This document shows, piece by piece, positions 8,271 to 16,520 of a DNA stretch of 35,732 bases. Source of the DNA: a virus; IMG/VR virus record IMGVR_UViG_3300038457_000033, positions 1 to 35,732 of that record; one strand, 5' to 3'. Every line of letters starts with the position of its first letter. The first letter of the stretch is position 1. The notes under the pieces are model-generated. The model was given only the letters and a program-made list of their open reading frames with translations. It was not told the DNA's origin and searched no databases. Made by a program: the position numbers and the translations under genes.

Positions 8271-8292
8271 CTGCGGGCATGACCGCCCGCAG
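8271..8292 (+). promoter_or_regulatory. hairpin enclosing the GIY-YIG start codon
   Basis: A perfect 8-bp inverted repeat (CTGCGGGC at 8271-8278, GCCCGCAG at 8285-8292) has the six-base loop ATGACC, whose first three bases are the start codon of the homing endonuclease. No good Shine-Dalgarno sequence precedes it. A TATACT hexamer at 8267-8272 could be a -10 box, but no convincing -35 box is seen. In the transcript the stem would cover the initiation region, much as a hairpin restrains I-TevI expression in T4; that comparison is inference. Confidence 0.55.
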
Positions 8293-8950
8293 TGATTTTT
8301 ATGTCTACGTGTTCTTTCGCCCGAACGGCGTCCCCTGCTACGTCGGGAAAGGGTGGGGCAAACGGTGGCTCAAACACGAATGGCGCAGCACAAACCCACA
8401 TCTCGCAAATATAGTTCGGCGCGCTGGCGGCGAACTTCCGAAGGTTAAGATTCGAGAAGGACTGACCGAAAGCGAAGCGTTCACGACGGAAATTGCCTTC
8501 ATCGCCGCAATCGGACGCGAAGCGAACGGCGGTCCCTTGGTCAACATGACTGACGGCGGAGAAGGCGTATCTGGACTTAAAATGTCGGCAGCAGCCAGGG
8601 CAAAAATGGGTGCGACAAAAATAGGTAATAAATACAGTGTAGGCCGAAAGGCCTCAGCCGATACCAAGGCGAAGCAGCGCGCCGCGAAACTGAATCGCAA
8701 GCTGAGTCCCGAACATCGCGCGGCAATAGGCGATGCGCACCGTGGAAAGAAACGCGATCCGGCATGGGGAGCCGCGATCAGCGCGGCGAAGATGGGCCAC
8801 GAGGTAAAGTCCGAGACAATCGAAAAGCTTCGTTCATGGAAGCGGTCACCGGAACTGTGTGCGAATATAGCGGCGGCGACCAAGGCAGCTATGAATCGAC
8901 CGGACGTTCAGGCTAAACTACATGCGCCAAGAACAGGGGTGGCAACATGA
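8279..8950 (+). CDS. GIY-YIG homing endonuclease
   Basis: 223 residues. The catalytic domain is at residues 7-90: 'FYVYVFFRPNGVPCYVGKG' holds the two GIY/YIG strands (Tyr8, Tyr10, Tyr21, Gly23), followed by Arg29 and His33, and a likely metal-binding glutamate in 'EAFTTEIAFI' (Glu71). 'NMTDGGEGVSG' closes the domain, as in free-standing phage enzymes. Residues 100-205 are short basic repeats ('SAAARAKMGATK', 'SPEHRAAIGDAHRGKK') like NUMOD3 DNA-binding units. It would cut an uninvaded allele so that the gene is copied in. Its TGA overlaps the ATG of the tail chaperone (ATGA). Codon use is less GC-biased than in the structural genes, which indicates transfer. Confidence 0.88.
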   Translation: MTARSDFYVYVFFRPNGVPCYVGKGWGKRWLKHEWRSTNPHLANIVRRAGGELPKVKIREGLTESEAFTTEIAFIAAIGREANGGPLVNMTDGGEGVSGLKMSAAARAKMGATKIGNKYSVGRKASADTKAKQRAAKLNRKLSPEHRAAIGDAHRGKKRDPAWGAAISAAKMGHEVKSETIEKLRSWKRSPELCANIAAATKAAMNRPDVQAKLHAPRTGVAT

Positions 8951-9594: not shown

Positions 9595-9719
9595 GCTGGG
9601 CGGCCAACGAAGGCTTCCCCGACTACATCGCGCAGTTCGGCGGCGGCCTAGAGTTTGCCTCGGCGCACGAGTATCGTTCTCGGTACAGCACGCTCGCCTT
9701 CGCGATGCGGGGTGGTTAA
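8947..9719 (+). CDS. tail assembly chaperone, -1 frameshift extended form
   Basis: Inferred G-GT style product: the frame at 8947 is read to a slip point between 9344 and 9423, then the -1 frame continues to TAA 9717-9719. The extension includes 'CANLIVDLCGVHSFLGD', then 'LSWAANEGFPDYIAQFGG' and 'YRSRYSTLAFAMRGG'. From about 9420 to 9719 this -1 frame has strong G/C third-position use and ordinary protein composition, unlike a shadow frame. It has no good start of its own at the point where its bias begins. By analogy with lambda gpG/gpGT, the extension would contact the tail tube. The exact slip site is unproven. Confidence 0.55.
9344..9422 (+). promoter_or_regulatory. candidate -1 frameshift signals
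   Basis: Two slip candidates lie in the chaperone gene. The first is a run of eight T at 9344-9351, containing the heptamer T TTT TTT in the right phase. A GC-only hairpin with a 7-bp stem and 3-base loop follows at 9373-9389, although its spacing of 21 bases is long. The second is GGGG at 9419-9422, exactly where codon bias moves from the first frame to the -1 frame. Codon bias favours the second site, while heptamer rules favour the first. Confidence 0.45.
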
Positions 9720-9821
9720 ATGGCCGACGGCAGAACCGATTCCTACGTCTATGTTATCTTCCGCCCGAACGGCGTGCCCTGCTACGTCGGGCACCAGGAA
9801 TTACGATATGACGGTGCGTAG
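9720..9821 (+). pseudogene. remnant of a second GIY-YIG homing endonuclease gene
   Basis: A 33-residue frame from ATG 9720, directly after the TAA of the extended chaperone, reads MADGRTDSYVYVIFRPNGVP then CYVG before diverging. The block 'YVYVxFRPNGVPCYVG' matches residues 8-23 of the intact enzyme at 8279 with one change, and the DNA is nearly identical over the same part. Homology stops right after the YVG codon, and an unrelated tail runs to TAG 9819-9821, overlapping the tape measure start. This is the 5' scar of a homing gene that was deleted. Confidence 0.8.
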
Positions 9822-11499
9822 CATAATCGACGTCGAACTGAACGACGACAAGTTCAAGGCGTTCGCGGCGCTGTTCGAAAAATACAGCGCGACGCTCGCG
9901 AAGACTCCCGGGGCGTGGGCGGCGGCTGGCAAGGAAATCCAGGGCAGCCGGAAGGGATTCGAGGCCATTGCGGCCGCGATGCTCGCCCAGAACGAGATGA
10001 CGCGCCGGGCGGCGACCGAGCAGCGGAAGAACGTCAACGAGCTGGACCGCGCCTCGACGCTGTGGCGCAGCATGGCGCGCAGCACGAGCAACGTCGCCGG
10101 GAACATCCGGGCGATGACCGGGCAGCTCCTGAAGTGGGCGTCGATCACCGGGATTGTGTCGGGCCTCGTCGGCGCCGGAGGTCTGTTCGGCATCGACCGC
10201 CTGGCGCTCGGGGTGGCGTCGGGGCGGCGGTCGTCCTTGGGCCTCGGGACGGGCTACGGCGAGCAGCGGGCGTTCCAGACCAACTTCGGCCGCCTGATAG
10301 ACCCGGACACGCTCCTGTCAGGCGTCAGCACCGCGCTGGCGGGCAACAGGACGGCACTGTTCGGGGCGGGCCTGTCTGGCAACCAGCTCCAGGGCAGCAC
10401 CGCGCAGGTGTCCGTCGAGGTCCTAAAGAGCGTCAAACGCCTGGTCGACCGGACGGACGAGAGCCAGCTCGGGTTCGTCGCCAACGCGCGGCGGTTGGGC
10501 GAGCTTGGGTTCGGCGTCGAAGACCTGCGTCGGCTCAAGCGCACGAGCGCGGGCGAGTTCCAGGGACTGATCGGCCAGTACGGGGCAAACCGCGGCGAGT
10601 TCGACCTGCCGCGCGACGTGTCCAGGCGGTGGCAGGAGTTCACCACGCAGATGTCCCGCGCCGGCCAGGGCATCGAGAACACGTTCGTGCGCGGCCTCGC
10701 GCCGCTCGCCCCGGGACTGACAAAGCTGTCGGAGTCCTTCGAGAAGGTCGTAAAGGCGTTCCTGCTTTCTCCGACGCTGGAGAAGTGGATCACAGCGCTG
10801 GACGTTGGTCTCGAGAAGCTCGCCAAGTACATCGGGACGCCGGAGTTCGAAAAAAACGTCCGGGACTTCGCCGTCAACCTCGGGAACGCGGCGGTAGCCG
10901 TCGGGCAGTTCGCGGCCTGGGTCGTCGGCAAAAGCCCGGAAGGCGCGACGACGGGCGGCCTGCTCGGCGAGAAAGAGGGTCACGACACCTGGAACGAGAT
11001 GCTTCGCGGTTCGCGCATCCTGCGGGACCGAAGGGCCGCCGGGACCGACACGCTCGGCGGCCAGTTCCTCGGCTCCCTGACGGGAGCGAACCTGCTCGGC
11101 ATCGTGCGGCGCAGCGAGGGAAGCGGCGACCAGGCCGTCTCCCCGGCGGGCGCCGTCGGGCGCTACCAGATCGAACCTGGCACCGCGCGCCAGTACGGGT
11201 TCGACCCGTCGCGGCTCAAGGACCCGGCCTACAACGAGACGGTTGCCAAGACGATCCTCGCCGACCTGGTGCGGCGCTACCACGGAAACACCAACGAGAT
11301 CCTCGCGGCCTACAACGCGGGACCAGGAGTTGCCAACCGCTACCGGGCGTCGGGAGACAACGCGGGGGTGCTGCCGCGCGAGACGCAGAAGTACATCGAC
11401 CGCGCCCAGCACATGCAGGGCTACACGCCCATCGTGGTGTCGGTGGAGAACAACACGGGCGGCAACGCGGCCGTTTCCGTCAACGGGCTGAAGAACTGA
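9808..11499 (+). CDS. tape measure protein with lytic transglycosylase domain
   Basis: 563 residues. I chose ATG 9808 (AGGAA upstream, start MTVRSIIDVELNDDKF); upstream in-frame sequence belongs to the chaperone region. Residues 1-130 are helical coiled coil. A hydrophobic glycine-rich stretch at about 112-130 (ITGIVSGLVGAGGLFGI) resembles tape measure membrane segments. Residues about 430-540 form an SLT lytic transglycosylase domain: Glu437 in 'VRRSEGSGDQ', 'SPAGAVGRYQIEPGTARQYG', 'EILAAYNAGPGVANRY' and 'LPRETQKYIDRA'. It sets tail length and opens peptidoglycan at DNA entry. It is short for the role, suggesting a fairly short tail. Confidence 0.85.
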   Translation: MTVRSIIDVELNDDKFKAFAALFEKYSATLAKTPGAWAAAGKEIQGSRKGFEAIAAAMLAQNEMTRRAATEQRKNVNELDRASTLWRSMARSTSNVAGNIRAMTGQLLKWASITGIVSGLVGAGGLFGIDRLALGVASGRRSSLGLGTGYGEQRAFQTNFGRLIDPDTLLSGVSTALAGNRTALFGAGLSGNQLQGSTAQVSVEVLKSVKRLVDRTDESQLGFVANARRLGELGFGVEDLRRLKRTSAGEFQGLIGQYGANRGEFDLPRDVSRRWQEFTTQMSRAGQGIENTFVRGLAPLAPGLTKLSESFEKVVKAFLLSPTLEKWITALDVGLEKLAKYIGTPEFEKNVRDFAVNLGNAAVAVGQFAAWVVGKSPEGATTGGLLGEKEGHDTWNEMLRGSRILRDRRAAGTDTLGGQFLGSLTGANLLGIVRRSEGSGDQAVSPAGAVGRYQIEPGTARQYGFDPSRLKDPAYNETVAKTILADLVRRYHGNTNEILAAYNAGPGVANRYRASGDNAGVLPRETQKYIDRAQHMQGYTPIVVSVENNTGGNAAVSVNGLKN

Positions 11500-11500
11500 C

Positions 11501-12241
11501 ATGGGAATCTCTCCGGGCCTCGCCGCATATAAGTTGAGCTTTCAGCTCAGCCCCATAATTTTGACCGGCGGCATCGCCACGGCCATCCCGGGCGGCGCGT
11601 TGCCGATCATCTCGATCACCGAGGCCATCAACTTCACCGAAGGGCTGCTCTCCGGCGGCGACAACCTGGACGACCTCGACGGGTTCTTCGCGAACTTCCG
11701 CCCGCTGCCCGGTTCGTCGATCATCGACCAGCAGATCGGCAAGTACCCGTTCGCCAACGCGGCGATAGCGGCCAACTCGGTCATCGCCCAGCCGCTCGCG
11801 ATCTCGATGAGGATGATATGCCCGGCGAGCGCCGAAGGCTCCTACGCGACGAAACTCGCGACGATGCTGGCGCTCCAGGCGACGCTCTCGCAGCACAACG
11901 CGCAGGGGGGCACCTACACCATCGCGACCCCGTCGTTCTTCTTCGTCAACTGCGTGATGACCGGCATGCGCGACACGTCGGCCGCCGACGACAAGCAGGC
12001 GCAGAACACCTGGCAGCTCGACTTCGAGAAACCGCTGCTGACGCTCGCCGACGCCCAGCAGGCACAGAACAACCTCATGAGCCAGATCACGAACGGGACC
12101 GCGATCGACGGCGTGCCGTCGTGGTCCGGGCTCGCGCCGACCGTCGGCAACCCGGCGAGCGTGGCCGCGCCGAGCATCATCCCGGCGGCGTCGAACCCGG
12201 CCGGCAGCGGGACTGCGGCCTCGATACCGGGGGCGCAATGA
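11501..12241 (+). CDS. tail/baseplate protein after the tape measure
   Basis: 246 residues from ATG 11501, one base after the tape measure stop. The first 190 residues look globular, with 'AYKLSFQLSPIILTGGIA', 'FTEGLLSGGDNLDDLDGFF' and 'TYTIATPSFFFVNCVMTG'. The last 50 are serine, proline and alanine rich and probably flexible. Genes in this position in related phages encode a protein joining tube and baseplate; I assign it by place only. It ends in ATGA overlap with the plug gene. Confidence 0.6.
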   Translation: MGISPGLAAYKLSFQLSPIILTGGIATAIPGGALPIISITEAINFTEGLLSGGDNLDDLDGFFANFRPLPGSSIIDQQIGKYPFANAAIAANSVIAQPLAISMRMICPASAEGSYATKLATMLALQATLSQHNAQGGTYTIATPSFFFVNCVMTGMRDTSAADDKQAQNTWQLDFEKPLLTLADAQQAQNNLMSQITNGTAIDGVPSWSGLAPTVGNPASVAAPSIIPAASNPAGSGTAASIPGAQ

Positions 12242-12729
12242 CGACGATCACGAACTTCGCGCCGACTGTCCTCGCGCCTTTTCAATTTCAGGCGACCCTC
12301 GACGGCGTGATCTACACCGTCATCGTCACCTGGAACCTGTTCGGCCGCCGCTGGTACGTCAACGTCTACGCTCCCGACGGGTCGCTCAAACTCTCGACCG
12401 CGCTCGTCGGCTCGCCGACCGGGGTCACGCTCCAGGGCCTCTCGTGGGCGGCCGGCATGGTCACGGCGACGGCAGCAGCCCCGCACGGCTACAAGGTCGG
12501 AAAGACAGTCCAGCTAACGGTCTCGGGGGCTTCGCCTGACGCCTACAACGGAAAGGTCCAGGCGTTCATCACCGGGCCATCGACGTTCACCTACCCGGTC
12601 GCTGCCGACCCAGGATCGGCGACGGTGTTCGGGGCGGCGTCCTACAACATCGACCTGGTCGGCGGCCACTTCGTGACCTCGACGATGGTGTTCCGCCAGG
12701 CCGCGAATCAGTTTGAAGTCACGCCTTGA
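12238..12729 (+). CDS. baseplate plug-like protein with inserted beta module
   Basis: 163 residues from ATG 12238 (ATGA overlap). Two separated parts look like the small baseplate plug family (DUF6983 type): the N-terminal 'FQATLDGVIYTVIVTWN', 'FGRRWYVNVYAPDGSLKLST' and the C-terminal 'IDLVGGHFVTSTMVFRQA' then 'NQFEVTP'. Between them, at about residues 65-135, sits an E1-FCCH-like module ('HGYKVGKTVQLTVSG', 'AYNGKVQAFITG', 'TFTYPVAADPGSATVFGA'). The plug closes the central channel of the baseplate before contraction. The module is an insertion relative to the shorter family members I know. Confidence 0.65.
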   Translation: MTTITNFAPTVLAPFQFQATLDGVIYTVIVTWNLFGRRWYVNVYAPDGSLKLSTALVGSPTGVTLQGLSWAAGMVTATAAAPHGYKVGKTVQLTVSGASPDAYNGKVQAFITGPSTFTYPVAADPGSATVFGAASYNIDLVGGHFVTSTMVFRQAANQFEVTP

Positions 12730-12730
12730 C

Positions 12731-13258
12731 CTACAAAAGGAGTCCATTCTTGCGAGCAAAATCAATAGGATCAAACGCGTGCTTCCTGAGATTGCAGGAG
12801 TCACACGTTAGCTGCAAATTGATTGGCTAATTCGATCCGCCTTTCGACAACGCGATAATGTGATCGACATGATAGCCGCGGTTAAGAGACTTTCGACAAT
12901 AGGCGCAGCGTCCTCGTTGGGCCTTGAACCTCGCCGCAATATCATCTTCGGTATGAACGCCGTTAGACTTGGCTTTAAGTGCTCGTCGATTGCGAGCATA
13001 CATGCGAAAAGCAGCGCCGTTCCTGGCCCGCCAAGACTTCAAATCGGCTTTAACTCGGTCTGGATGTCTCGCTCTATAGCTGGCAGTGTGCGCGGCTCTT
13101 TTTGCCCTGACAGCTTTAGGATTGGCATCAAGTTCGGCTTTAGCTCTCGCCATTCGAGATTTCGAAGCGCGCTTACGCTTCTTCGGCCGATCCGCCATAT
13201 ATTGTCGCATATAAGCGGCGTGAGCCGCCTTTTGCTTGGGCGTTTTTGTCTTAGCCAT
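12731..13258 (-). pseudogene. antisense HNH homing endonuclease interrupted by an in-frame TAG
   Basis: Read leftward from ATG 13256-13258, 143 residues end at TAG 12827-12829: a basic N-terminal region (MAKTKTPKQKAAHAAYMRQY) and then an HNH core 'CAYCRKSLNRGYHVDHIIAL' followed by 'SKGGSN'. In the same frame beyond the TAG come 31 residues that complete the domain ('PINLQLTCDSCNLRKHAFDP', ending at TAG 12731-12733). The window's other HNH protein has an amino acid at the stop position ('ADENLQLTCPTCNRKKGAK'). Without the second CxxC and the last catalytic part the enzyme should be dead. TAG ends several other genes here, so recoding is unlikely. Confidence 0.82.
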
Positions 13259-13284: not shown

Positions 13285-13319
13285 GGACGGCCCTCCCGCT
13301 TATAACAGGAGGGCCGTCC
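13285..13319. repeat. 12-bp perfect inverted repeat before the hub gene
   Basis: GGACGGCCCTCC at 13285-13296 is exactly complementary to GGAGGGCCGTCC at 13308-13319, with an 11-base loop. It lies at the edge of the HNH insertion, upstream of both the leftward HNH gene and the rightward hub gene. No T run follows on either strand, so it is not an ordinary terminator. Its right arm overlaps the only Shine-Dalgarno-like sequence (AGGAGGG, 13307-13313) of the hub gene. Confidence 0.8.
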
Positions 13320-13320
13320 A

Positions 13321-14343
13321 ATTCGCTATTATAGGATAGAAATCAGCGACCCGTCGAGCGGGAAGGTCATCACCCCGCCGGGGTTCGACGGGCTTCTCGG
13401 CGGCGCGACCTACACCAGCTTCGTCAACGGGCAGACGCTTCCTGGCGCATGGAACGTCGAACTCGACGTCCCGGTCATCGGGGCCGCTACCCCGCAGGGC
13501 TCGGCGCTGGCGCGCGTGTGGGGGATCAGCCAGCAGGAGATCAGCCAGGCCAACGACCTGAAGGGCAAGAACATCAAGATATTCGGCGGCATGCAGAAGG
13601 GTCTGCCGCTGGCGAAGCCGGCCCAGTCCGGGCTTCTCGTCCAGGGCTACGTCTTCCAGGCCTTCGGCAACTGGATCGGGGTCGATCGGACGCTCGACTT
13701 GGTGATCAATCCTGGGCAGGCGTCGTCGTCGACTACTGGCGGGCTCGGCACGCTGGCCGCGCCGAAAAACATCGTTCTCAACTGGAAGGCCGGGACGCCG
13801 CTCGCGGGCGCGCTCCAGTCGACGCTGTCGACCGCGTTCCCCGGTTCGACAGTGACGGTCAACATCAACGCAGGCATCGTGCGGCCGAACGACGAGGTCG
13901 CCTACTTCCCAACGCTCGAGCAGCTCGCGCAGTACGTCGCCCAGACGAGCCGCGACGTCATCAAGACCGCGAACTACCGCGGCGTTACCATCGTGCCTGG
14001 CCAGAACGCGTTCTCGATCTTCGACGGTTCGGGAGCCGCCAGCGCGCAGAAGCCGATCGCGTTCGAAGACCTCATAGGGCAGCCGACATGGATCGAAGCT
14101 CCGAACATCTCGATCAAGACGGTCATGCGCGCGGACATCAGCGTCGGTGACGACGTCTCGCTCCCGCAGGCGGTGACGACGAACACGGCGGCGGCGCAGA
14201 CGTCGCAGGTCAACCAGGCGGTGGCCTTCCAGGGCGGATTCCAGATCGTCAGCGCGCGCCACGTCGGAAACTTCCGGCAGGCATCAGCAGATGCCTGGGT
14301 GAGTGTGTTCGAGGGCGCGCCGCTCAAACAGGCTGCCGCCTGA
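13321..14343 (+). CDS. baseplate hub protein, apparent ATT start
   Basis: 340 residues if read from ATT 13321. The frame has a TAA at 13303-13305 and no ATG, GTG or TTG until GTG 13516, yet coding is clear from 13321 (IRYYRIEISDPSSGK, 'GATYTSFVNGQTLPGAWNV', 'ELDVPVIGAATPQGSAL'). Related hub proteins, as I remember them, begin with M-I-R-Y-Y. AGGAGGG lies 7 bases before the ATT. The C-terminal part has 'TPLAGALQSTLSTAFPG' and 'ISVGDDVSLPQAV'. It forms the centre of the baseplate beneath the tube, holding the spike. It overlaps the spike gene (TGATG). The HNH insertion probably removed the normal start region. Confidence 0.7.
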   Translation: MRYYRIEISDPSSGKVITPPGFDGLLGGATYTSFVNGQTLPGAWNVELDVPVIGAATPQGSALARVWGISQQEISQANDLKGKNIKIFGGMQKGLPLAKPAQSGLLVQGYVFQAFGNWIGVDRTLDLVINPGQASSSTTGGLGTLAAPKNIVLNWKAGTPLAGALQSTLSTAFPGSTVTVNINAGIVRPNDEVAYFPTLEQLAQYVAQTSRDVIKTANYRGVTIVPGQNAFSIFDGSGAASAQKPIAFEDLIGQPTWIEAPNISIKTVMRADISVGDDVSLPQAVTTNTAAAQTSQVNQAVAFQGGFQIVSARHVGNFRQASADAWVSVFEGAPLKQAAA

Positions 14344-15452
14344 TGCCAGACAACAGCCAAAAAACCGCTTTAGCCCGGACGCTCAACCAGTTCGCGGAGC
14401 GCAAGGTCCGCGGCGCCATCGACCTGTTCGGCAAGGCCCTCCCGGCTTCGGTCGTCGCGGTCGTCAGCTCCGGCATCGTGACGGTGAAGTTTGAGATCGC
14501 GAAGACCACGAACAGCCCCTACACGCTGACAACCGTAACGATGCCGCTTCTCGGGTCAGAATACATCCGCTATCCGATCCAAGTTGGATGCAAGGGATTC
14601 GTGGTTTCGGCCGACGCCTACCTCGGCGGCGTGAGCGGGCTCGGCGGAGGCGTCGCCGATCTATCGCTGCGCGGCAACCTTTCGACGCTGGTGTTCTTTC
14701 CGATCGGAAACAGCGGATGGTCGGCGAGCGACGATCCGAACGCGCTGGTGCTCTACGGTCCCGACGGCGTCATCATCCGTAATCTGGCCGGCACGTCGAA
14801 GATCACGACGAACGCCGACGGCGTGACGGTCGCGCCGCCAGCCGGCAAGCCGACCGCGATCCAGAGCGACGCCCAACTCACCGGGCAAATCAAGAACCCC
14901 GGCGGCGGCACCTACAGCCAGCCGATAACCACGTCGGCCGACGTGACCGGAAACAACGTCATCGCCGGCGCGATGGTGTCGTCGCCGGCGGCCGCGTTCG
15001 GCACCGCGATGGTGGGCGGCCACGATGCCCTCACGACGGCAAATATAGGGACCGCCGCAGGGGACTTGATCGCCCTGGACGGGAGCGCCAAGCTCCCGGC
15101 CGTCGACGGGTCGCAGCTAACAAACTTGCCATCGCAGTTGACGGTCGGTTCCGCTCTCGTGGTGAGTCCATACGCGATCTCCACCGTGACGGTCCACGCG
15201 CACGGCCTTGGCGTTGTACCGAGTTATGTCAGAGCGACGATGACCTGCCTCACCGCGAACGCGGGCTACAGCATCGGCAACGTTGCGATGTTCGGCGTGA
15301 TTCTAACCGGTGCCGCAATCGTGCTCGACGCCACTGATTTGACGCTGATCACGTCGAACGCCGCATTTAATGTCCCGAACAAAACCACCGGCGCGCTGAC
15401 CGCACTTACGCCGGCGGACTGGTCGCTCACGCTGACGCCATACGCGCTTTAG
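14343..15452 (+). CDS. baseplate central spike, Gp138-type
   Basis: 369 residues from ATG 14343, overlapping the hub stop. Residues about 30-135 have the Gp138 N-terminal OB-like pattern: 'SGIVTVKFEIAKTTNSPYTL', 'VTMPLLGSEYIRYPIQVG' and 'LRGNLSTLVFFPIGN'. Residues about 135-185 look like a short beta-helix needle ('LYGPDGVIIRNLAG', 'ITTNADGVTVAPP'). The C-terminal 170 residues are an added fibre-like part (GTAAGDLIALDGSAKLPAVD) resembling tail fibre shaft and tip. The protein would pierce the outer membrane when the sheath contracts. Confidence 0.72.
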   Translation: MPDNSQKTALARTLNQFAERKVRGAIDLFGKALPASVVAVVSSGIVTVKFEIAKTTNSPYTLTTVTMPLLGSEYIRYPIQVGCKGFVVSADAYLGGVSGLGGGVADLSLRGNLSTLVFFPIGNSGWSASDDPNALVLYGPDGVIIRNLAGTSKITTNADGVTVAPPAGKPTAIQSDAQLTGQIKNPGGGTYSQPITTSADVTGNNVIAGAMVSSPAAAFGTAMVGGHDALTTANIGTAAGDLIALDGSAKLPAVDGSQLTNLPSQLTVGSALVVSPYAISTVTVHAHGLGVVPSYVRATMTCLTANAGYSIGNVAMFGVILTGAAIVLDATDLTLITSNAAFNVPNKTTGALTALTPADWSLTLTPYAL

Positions 15453-15468
15453 AACGAAGGCACGCTAG

Positions 15469-15522
15469 ATGCAAAGTCGCAAGGACTCGTGTAAGAATAT
15501 CACTGCGAGGAACGCGATATGA
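15469..15522 (+). CDS. possible 17-residue leader peptide
   Basis: A short frame from ATG 15469 (MQSRKDSCKNITARNAI) ends in a TGA that overlaps the ATG of the wedge gene at 15519 (ATGA). It could be a leader peptide that couples translation of the wedge, or chance. There is no strong ribosome site. It is listed because otherwise the wedge gene also lacks a clear Shine-Dalgarno sequence. Confidence 0.2.
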   Translation: MQSRKDSCKNITARNAI

Positions 15523-15866
15523 GAACCTATGGGAGGGTTTCGAATCCAGACGGATCGAAGACATGGGTGGTCGTGCAGACGGCTCCTGACGGAAGCAATG
15601 ACTATGTATGGCTCACAACTCTTTGCCAAGTTCTGCTGTTAAATCTTGGCGAATCTCCTTTTTATGCGAATTTTGGCATTCCCGCCAAGCCGTCGGTCGT
15701 CCAGCAGGTCCAGCCGGACTACTACGTCGCCAGGACCCAGCAGCAGTTCGCCAAATACTTCGCAAGCCTGATCGTGGCGAAGCGGGCGGCGCAAGCAAAC
15801 CCGACCTACGACATCGCGGTCACGACGAACCAGGGAGTTCGGATCGCTGCAAGCGTCCCGATTTAA
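15519..15866 (+). CDS. baseplate wedge protein, gp25/gpW-like
   Basis: 115 residues from ATG 15519. 'TLCQVLLLNLGESPFYANFG' is the signature-like start of gp25-type wedge proteins. It is followed by 'YVARTQQQFAKYFASLIVAK' and 'YDIAVTTNQGVRIAASVPI'. The size and the place before the J-like gene agree. It would link the hub to the outer wedge and nucleate sheath assembly. The AT-rich HNH gene starts three bases after its stop. Confidence 0.7.
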   Translation: MRTYGRVSNPDGSKTWVVVQTAPDGSNDYVWLTTLCQVLLLNLGESPFYANFGIPAKPSVVQQVQPDYYVARTQQQFAKYFASLIVAKRAAQANPTYDIAVTTNQGVRIAASVPI

Positions 15867-15869
15867 TCA

Positions 15870-16520
15870 ATGAATCTAATAGATAAAAAATGCCGCAGAT
15901 GTTCAATCGGTAAGCCAGCAGCGGAGTTCTTCAAAATGGCGGCCGCAAACGATGGGCTGCATTTATGGTGCAAAGGATGCTGCAAAGAATATCAGAATGA
16001 ATTACTTCGTCGGGACCCTGAGCATCGAATCAGATCAACAAAAAAACACGCTGCCAAAATAAGAATGAAACGAAAGATGTATAGGGAATTAAATGCAGGA
16101 AGGATACAATCCTATAATGCAAATTACTACTCATGCAATTCAGAAGAAATGCTAGCTAGATCGGCGGCATGGCATTTAAGAAATCCGCATTACAGCGTTG
16201 AATACTATGCCAAAAATGTTGATCTATGTAAGGCAAAAGATCACAGACGTAGAGCTAGAAAAAAAGGTATTGTTGGAACAACGTCAAAAGGTTTAATACA
16301 ACTTCTTCTGTCAGAACAAGGAGGGAAGTGTCCATATTGCCTTTCTAATCTGTACGAAGTTGGACATCATCTAGATCATTACATGCCTCTTGCTTTAGAT
16401 GGAAGGCATGCAGATGAAAATCTGCAACTGACATGTCCAACGTGCAATCGTAAGAAGGGTGCAAAAAATCCCATAGACTTTTTGCAGACAGTTATGCGCG
16501 CAATGGACGTGCCGATATGA
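15870..16520 (+). CDS. HNH homing endonuclease with N-terminal zinc ribbon
   Basis: 216 residues from ATG 15870. N-terminal Cys8, Cys11, Cys34 and Cys37 ('CRRC', 'CKGC') form a probable zinc ribbon. The middle is basic and helical. The HNH domain is at residues 154-206: 'CPYCLSNLYEVGHHLDHYMP' with Asp169-His170, then 'NLQLTCPTCNRKKGAKNPID' with Asn193. The base composition is clearly AT-richer than the flanking baseplate genes, which indicates recent entry. Its stop overlaps the next start (ATGA). It lies precisely between the wedge and DUF6527-like genes without breaking either one. Confidence 0.85.
   Translation: MNLIDKKCRRCSIGKPAAEFFKMAAANDGLHLWCKGCCKEYQNELLRRDPEHRIRSTKKHAAKIRMKRKMYRELNAGRIQSYNANYYSCNSEEMLARSAAWHLRNPHYSVEYYAKNVDLCKAKDHRRRARKKGIVGTTSKGLIQLLLSEQGGKCPYCLSNLYEVGHHLDHYMPLALDGRHADENLQLTCPTCNRKKGAKNPIDFLQTVMRAMDVPI

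Follow-up and report, generated by a model that had tools for sequence, protein, structure and literature searches.

A probable AUU start codon in a phage baseplate hub gene and candidate AUU/AUC starts among its relatives

The baseplate hub gene of a 35,732-base virus record, a single metagenome contig analysed over its whole length (hereinafter the window), very likely starts at an AUU codon, and predicted AUU/AUC starts recur in other genes and contigs of this phage group. The position of the codon, its conservation and recurrence, the strength of its Shine-Dalgarno site and its independence from a neighbouring HNH insert come directly from sequence analysis; we infer that ribosomes use the AUU, that the product begins with fMet, that output is low and that initiation is sensitive to IF3.

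Table 1 Features of the hub region and related genes in the window
Feature	Position	Strand	Remarks
Homing-endonuclease-like gene	8279-8950	+	phrog_314, E 1e-15; between tail genes
Plug gene	12238-12729	+	Normal ATG; Pfam PF22479 Pam3_gp18 plug, E 1.5e-4, just below cut-off
HNH endonuclease gene between plug and hub	12731-13258	-	Antisense; assigned from translation; Pfam HNH_5 weak, below cut-off; PHROG HNH/endonuclease VII families
Perfect 12-bp inverted repeat	13285-13319 (13285-13296 / 13308-13319)		Hub Shine-Dalgarno in 3' arm
In-frame TAA closing the hub frame upstream	13303-13305	+	Read from sequence
Shine-Dalgarno AGGAGGG	13307-13313	+	7 bases before ATT; homologous site in HNH-free L017
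Baseplate hub gene	13321-14343	+	340 codons plus TGA; proposed start ATT 13321-13323; phrog_196 match
Promoter-like site TCGACG-18-TATAAT	13328-13357	-	Inside hub codons 3-13; consensus 10/12
Gene after hub (spike/puncturing-protein position)	14343-15452	+	ATG in window; L016 homolog ATT
phrog_7986 family gene	15519-15866	+	ATG in window; ATT in L010/L012, L011, L016, perhaps L018
HNH/endonuclease VII-like gene	15870-16520	+	phrog_1035, E 4e-27; inside baseplate block

The hub gene and its aligned ATT codon

The hub protein matches phrog_196 (baseplate hub; E 2.5e-23, residues 2-338), which fits the location of its gene between the plug and spike-position genes, while searches of Pfam and of PDB sequences returned no match and no relative, respectively. 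Together with the phrog_196 match, the order tape measure - phrog_7750 - plug - hub - spike position - phrog_7986 - wedge likens the gene to Pam3-like/phrog_196 hubs, from which it differs solely in its start codon. Between the upstream TAA and ATT 13321 lie the codons CAG GAG GGC CGT CCA; no canonical start codon occurs in the frame from that stop to +64 codons, and the first ATG, GTG or TTG is GTG 13516, at +65 codons from the ATT. The sequence-only reading had reported both this absence of a standard start before GTG 13516 and an AGGAGGG 7 bases ahead of the ATT, and was right on each count.

In alignments of hub homologs, at first from 13 viral contigs and later from many more, the shared sequence begins with M-R-[YF]-Y, and its M falls on the window's ATT. 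ATT 13321 is therefore the M position itself, aligned with the start codon of the homologs, and shares this feature and the lack of canonical codons with infC-like starts. That relatives begin MIRYYR, as the sequence-only reading had it, is off by one residue: they begin MRYY, so the window's protein would be fM-R-Y-Y, not M-I-R-Y-Y. Codons 2-65 share 66-86% amino-acid identity with nine relatives, show dN of 0.13-0.35 against dS of 0.69-1.7, contain invariant residues of the alignment and, over the first 64 codons of the gene, are conserved to the same degree as the remainder. The earlier proposal that ATT 13321 opens an intact, conserved hub gene is thus supported by the aligned M and by dN<dS.

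Among 91 distinct hub N-termini, 85 carry ATG, GTG or TTG at the aligned codon. Two of the other six have a canonical codon nearby: ATG lies one codon upstream in L005, and TTG four codons upstream in L156, for which reason the ATA at the aligned position of L156 was discounted as a start. The remaining four, the window (ATT), L017 (ATT), L016 (ATC) and L037 (ATC), are different contigs and have no canonical codon at or near the aligned position upstream. The hub ATT is best read as a real, non-chance feature, because at precisely that codon three other contigs have ATT or ATC in place of a canonical start. A search of viral contigs for an exact copy of this start region found none, the base at 13321 being one contig's reading, and the window carries no phage tRNA able to explain the decoding. 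A single prophage relative was found in genomes (L048), with ATG.

In a tree of 46 hubs, all ATT/ATC hubs fall in one 17-member clade without grouping together; the most parsimonious history has four changes, at least two of which are required by well-supported branches. The ribosome-binding site and ATT of the window recur in L017 (GGAGGGYCGTCCRATTCGYTATTATAG), the common site being GGAGGG[C/T]CGTCC[A/G]ATTCG[C/T]TATTATAG, which argues for common descent of ribosome-binding site and start in the two contigs. This apparent relationship comes mainly from the stretch directly around the start, the score of the leader alignment alone being no higher than the best of 300 shuffles, which it equalled.

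Shine-Dalgarno strength and the plug-hub junction

Scored against an E. coli-type anti-Shine-Dalgarno, the AGGAGGG of the window has a duplex energy of -10.8, the strongest among 46 hubs, and is a strong site at workable spacing, though it sits inside a hairpin. The four ATT/ATC hubs range from -10.0 to -10.8, compared with a mean of -5.4 for the other hubs (one-sided Mann-Whitney p = 6e-4), and within the 17-member clade ATT/ATC and canonical hubs are fully separated (p = 4e-4). The same holds across all genes, with median energies of -10.0 for ATT, -10.4 for ATC and about -6 for ATG and GTG (p = 3e-4); all of these tests count related sequences as independent and include few ATT/ATC sites. 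Such a bias would follow if ATT/ATC could work as starts only with the help of a strong Shine-Dalgarno; sequencing errors would not be expected to produce it.

The hairpin is formed by the perfect 12-bp repeat around an 11-base loop (-26.0 kcal/mol folded alone; region z-score -2.8), and the window's folded leader is the most stable among the leaders compared. At -26 kcal/mol, a hairpin covering the Shine-Dalgarno should hinder initiation. It buries the hub site in the window only, its 5' arm being missing from the leaders of L016, L017 and L037, and this arm may have arrived with the HNH cassette. The loop and 3' arm, by comparison, resemble the L017 leader. A role as a terminator was dropped, the T run after the hairpin being missing on both strands. 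The promoter-like minus-strand site, a consensus match, could in principle transcribe the HNH gene through the hairpin, and the transcript would begin at about the hairpin itself.

The HNH gene has an in-frame TAG (12827-12829 in plus-strand coordinates) inside its HNH motif, which is therefore incomplete. As TAG ends several other genes of the window and is its normal stop, reading it as an amino acid was rejected, and the HNH gene is probably broken. The sequence AAAAGGAG near 12735-12742, previously suspected to be an old, displaced ribosome-binding site of the hub, turned out to be the HNH frame's own 3' end (...GLLL*).

The sequence-only reading had held that the HNH insertion left the hub on a rare start codon, and had proposed a comparison with HNH-free relatives. 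That comparison does not support an HNH cause: L016, L017 and L037 lack an HNH gene, have a short gap from plug stop to hub start and are likewise without a standard start (ATC, ATT and ATC, respectively). Conversely, L008 has a homolog of the HNH gene, with 41% identity, lying antisense at the same junction, and its hub starts with ATG. Insert and ATT/ATC start therefore occur independently, in both directions, and ATT/ATC is found in other genes as well (see below). Because the HNH-free L017 shares the ribosome-binding site and ATT of the window, this site most likely predates the insertion.

The plug-hub junction holds different extra genes in L002, L003, L005, L006 and L008, and therefore looks like an insertion hot spot. 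Within the window, three mobile-nuclease-like genes lie in the tail module (Table 1). Directly ahead of the tape-measure gene, TDSYVYVIFRPNGVPCYVG (about 9715-9795, plus strand) echoes the N-terminal part of the homing-endonuclease-like gene (SDFYVYVFFRPNGVPCYVG, 8279-8340, plus strand), as if it were the remnant of a second copy.

ATT and ATC at the start positions of other genes

Counting a Shine-Dalgarno plus codon without regard to homology gave a weak signal, ATT standing at 2.6-fold within the clade and AAC, AGC and GCG equally high, and a homology-based screen was therefore used instead. Open frames of 147 non-redundant loci (1.02 Mb) were compared all against all, and the codon at the homolog-voted start was recorded where it received at least 65% of the votes. 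At the voted start, the 218 distinct well-supported genes of the metagenome hub loci have ATG (142), GTG (53), TTG (14), ATT (7) or ATC (2), and no other codon; ATT/ATC thus accounts for 9 of 218, about 4%, a biased rate as the sample was centred on the ATT hub, although the non-hub sites were found without prior targeting. ATT/ATC sites are few in number, and related genes do not amount to independent cases. Isolate prophages contributed 47 genes to the screen, none with ATT or ATC.

Outside the hub, ATT was found in the phrog_7986 genes of L010/L012, L011, L016 and L018/L019 and in the tape-measure gene of L162, whose homolog in the window begins MTVRSIIDVE. In each of the pairs L010/L012 and L018/L019, contigs from two metagenomes have an identical site. 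Weaker cases are the phrog_7986 genes of L018 and L016, both with a weaker Shine-Dalgarno; the former also has an in-frame TTG 31 codons upstream and is perhaps an ATT start.

When six neighbouring families were screened, an ATT stood out at the spike-position gene of L016 (TGAGGAGTCCGTCCG-ATT), whose homolog in the window corresponds by synteny to the 'puncturing protein' of Pantoea phage PdC23; the L016 site is additional to the 218-gene counts, its vote having fallen one codon off. A CTG start of the spike-position gene in L158 was left out, with a weak vote (24/44) and a weak Shine-Dalgarno. One phage contig carries three candidate ATT/ATC starts, at the hub, the spike position and the phrog_7986 gene (L016:3001, L016:4036 and L191 minus-strand position 10060).

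Competing readings, precedents and meaning

Four other accounts of the hub start were weighed. The HNH gene lies immediately upstream of the hub, and the hairpin enclosing the ribosome-binding site is confined to the window, as would be the case if the insertion had removed the original start, leaving ATT as a fallback or the hub on its way to loss. This account is very improbable given the three HNH-free hubs with ATT/ATC, the HNH-bearing L008 with its ATG hub and an intact frame with dN<dS. A sequencing or assembly error hiding a true ATG (or GTG/TTG) at 13321 might be suspected in a single contig whose start region has no exact copy among viral contigs; it is distinctly improbable in view of the ATT or ATC at the aligned hub codon of three other contigs and the ATT of other genes seen in duplicate assemblies from separate metagenomes, and an error would not come with a strong Shine-Dalgarno.

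That translation begins at GTG 13516, the first canonical in-frame start, with the first 65 codons untranslated, is very unlikely because codons 2-65 are conserved, with dN<dS and invariant residues: such a start would remove R2, Y4, S33, G37, A43, D49 and A56, among other conserved residues, from a region under purifying selection, and the bases ahead of 13516 show no Shine-Dalgarno. Some intron or bypass systems place a mobile nuclease gene at the start of an essential gene, and by analogy an upstream start could be joined to the hub across the HNH cassette through RNA splicing, ribosome hopping or frameshifting. The chance of this is close to nil, since the window has no match to an Rfam intron, self-splicing or otherwise, or to any other RNA family at gathering threshold, HNH-free relatives have ATT/ATC behind a Shine-Dalgarno of their own, and the antisense HNH frame plus the hairpin would leave hardly any space for the core of a group I intron.

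For initiation at the AUU, the 30S subunit would dock on the strong AGGAGGG, and the initiator fMet-tRNA would pair with the first two bases of AUU despite a third-position mismatch normally penalised by IF3, giving a hub product that begins fMet-Arg-Tyr-Tyr as in the homologs. AUU/AUC would then be a minor, recurring start class in structural genes of the phage group, one that stays usable thanks to unusually strong Shine-Dalgarno sites, and would probably set a low output suited to few-copy proteins. A virion needs few copies of its hub, spike and tape measure; therefore either selection for low output or drift tolerated under a strong Shine-Dalgarno would fit.

The hub AUU belongs to the known non-canonical AUN starts and is not a new category. 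AUU/AUC main starts are known from just a handful of bacterial genes. T4 baseplate gene 26 offers a phage parallel, with an AUU that initiates a shorter internal product there and a predicted main start here. For infC the start codon is ATT in E. coli and ATC in Streptomyces, and starts of this type are subject to repression by IF3 (PMC5472188); pcnB of E. coli has an AUU start as mentioned in PMC13009471. In both, as predicted here, AUU/AUC is the main start of a real gene, with low output there (PMC5472188; for pcnB, via the mention in PMC13009471). Those are single host housekeeping genes with regulatory roles, whereas several phage structural genes appear to be involved here, and unlike in infC and pcnB the start codon is ATG/GTG/TTG in some relatives and ATT/ATC in others. 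Another parallel is S. aureus cvfC1 (AUU), ccpN and citZ (AUA), in which an AUN start is directed by an unusually strong Shine-Dalgarno; AUU/AUA starts with extended motifs give about 10% of AUG output there, and up to 30% in one case (PMC13009471). The S. aureus examples are Firmicute bacterial genes studied by ribosome profiling and reporters (PMC13009471), compared with phage genes whose starts are predicted here from sequence.

Candidate ATT/ATC starts in this phage group fall mostly where the Shine-Dalgarno is strong and, at about 4% in the hub-centred sample, are not far below TTG, providing natural cases in which to test the extent to which a strong Shine-Dalgarno may substitute for a proper start codon. 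A broader and tentative reading, which we consider rather unlikely, is that AUU/AUC forms a regular third-tier start class in the group, setting low tail-protein output or tying synthesis to IF3 levels, possibly via initiation fidelity relaxed by hosts or phages, and is hidden by gene finders through truncation. Gene finders limited to ATG, GTG and TTG would drop 65 residues of the window's hub and 52 of the L037 hub, and because they shorten hubs in this way the N-termini of phage structural proteins may be misannotated more often than thought.
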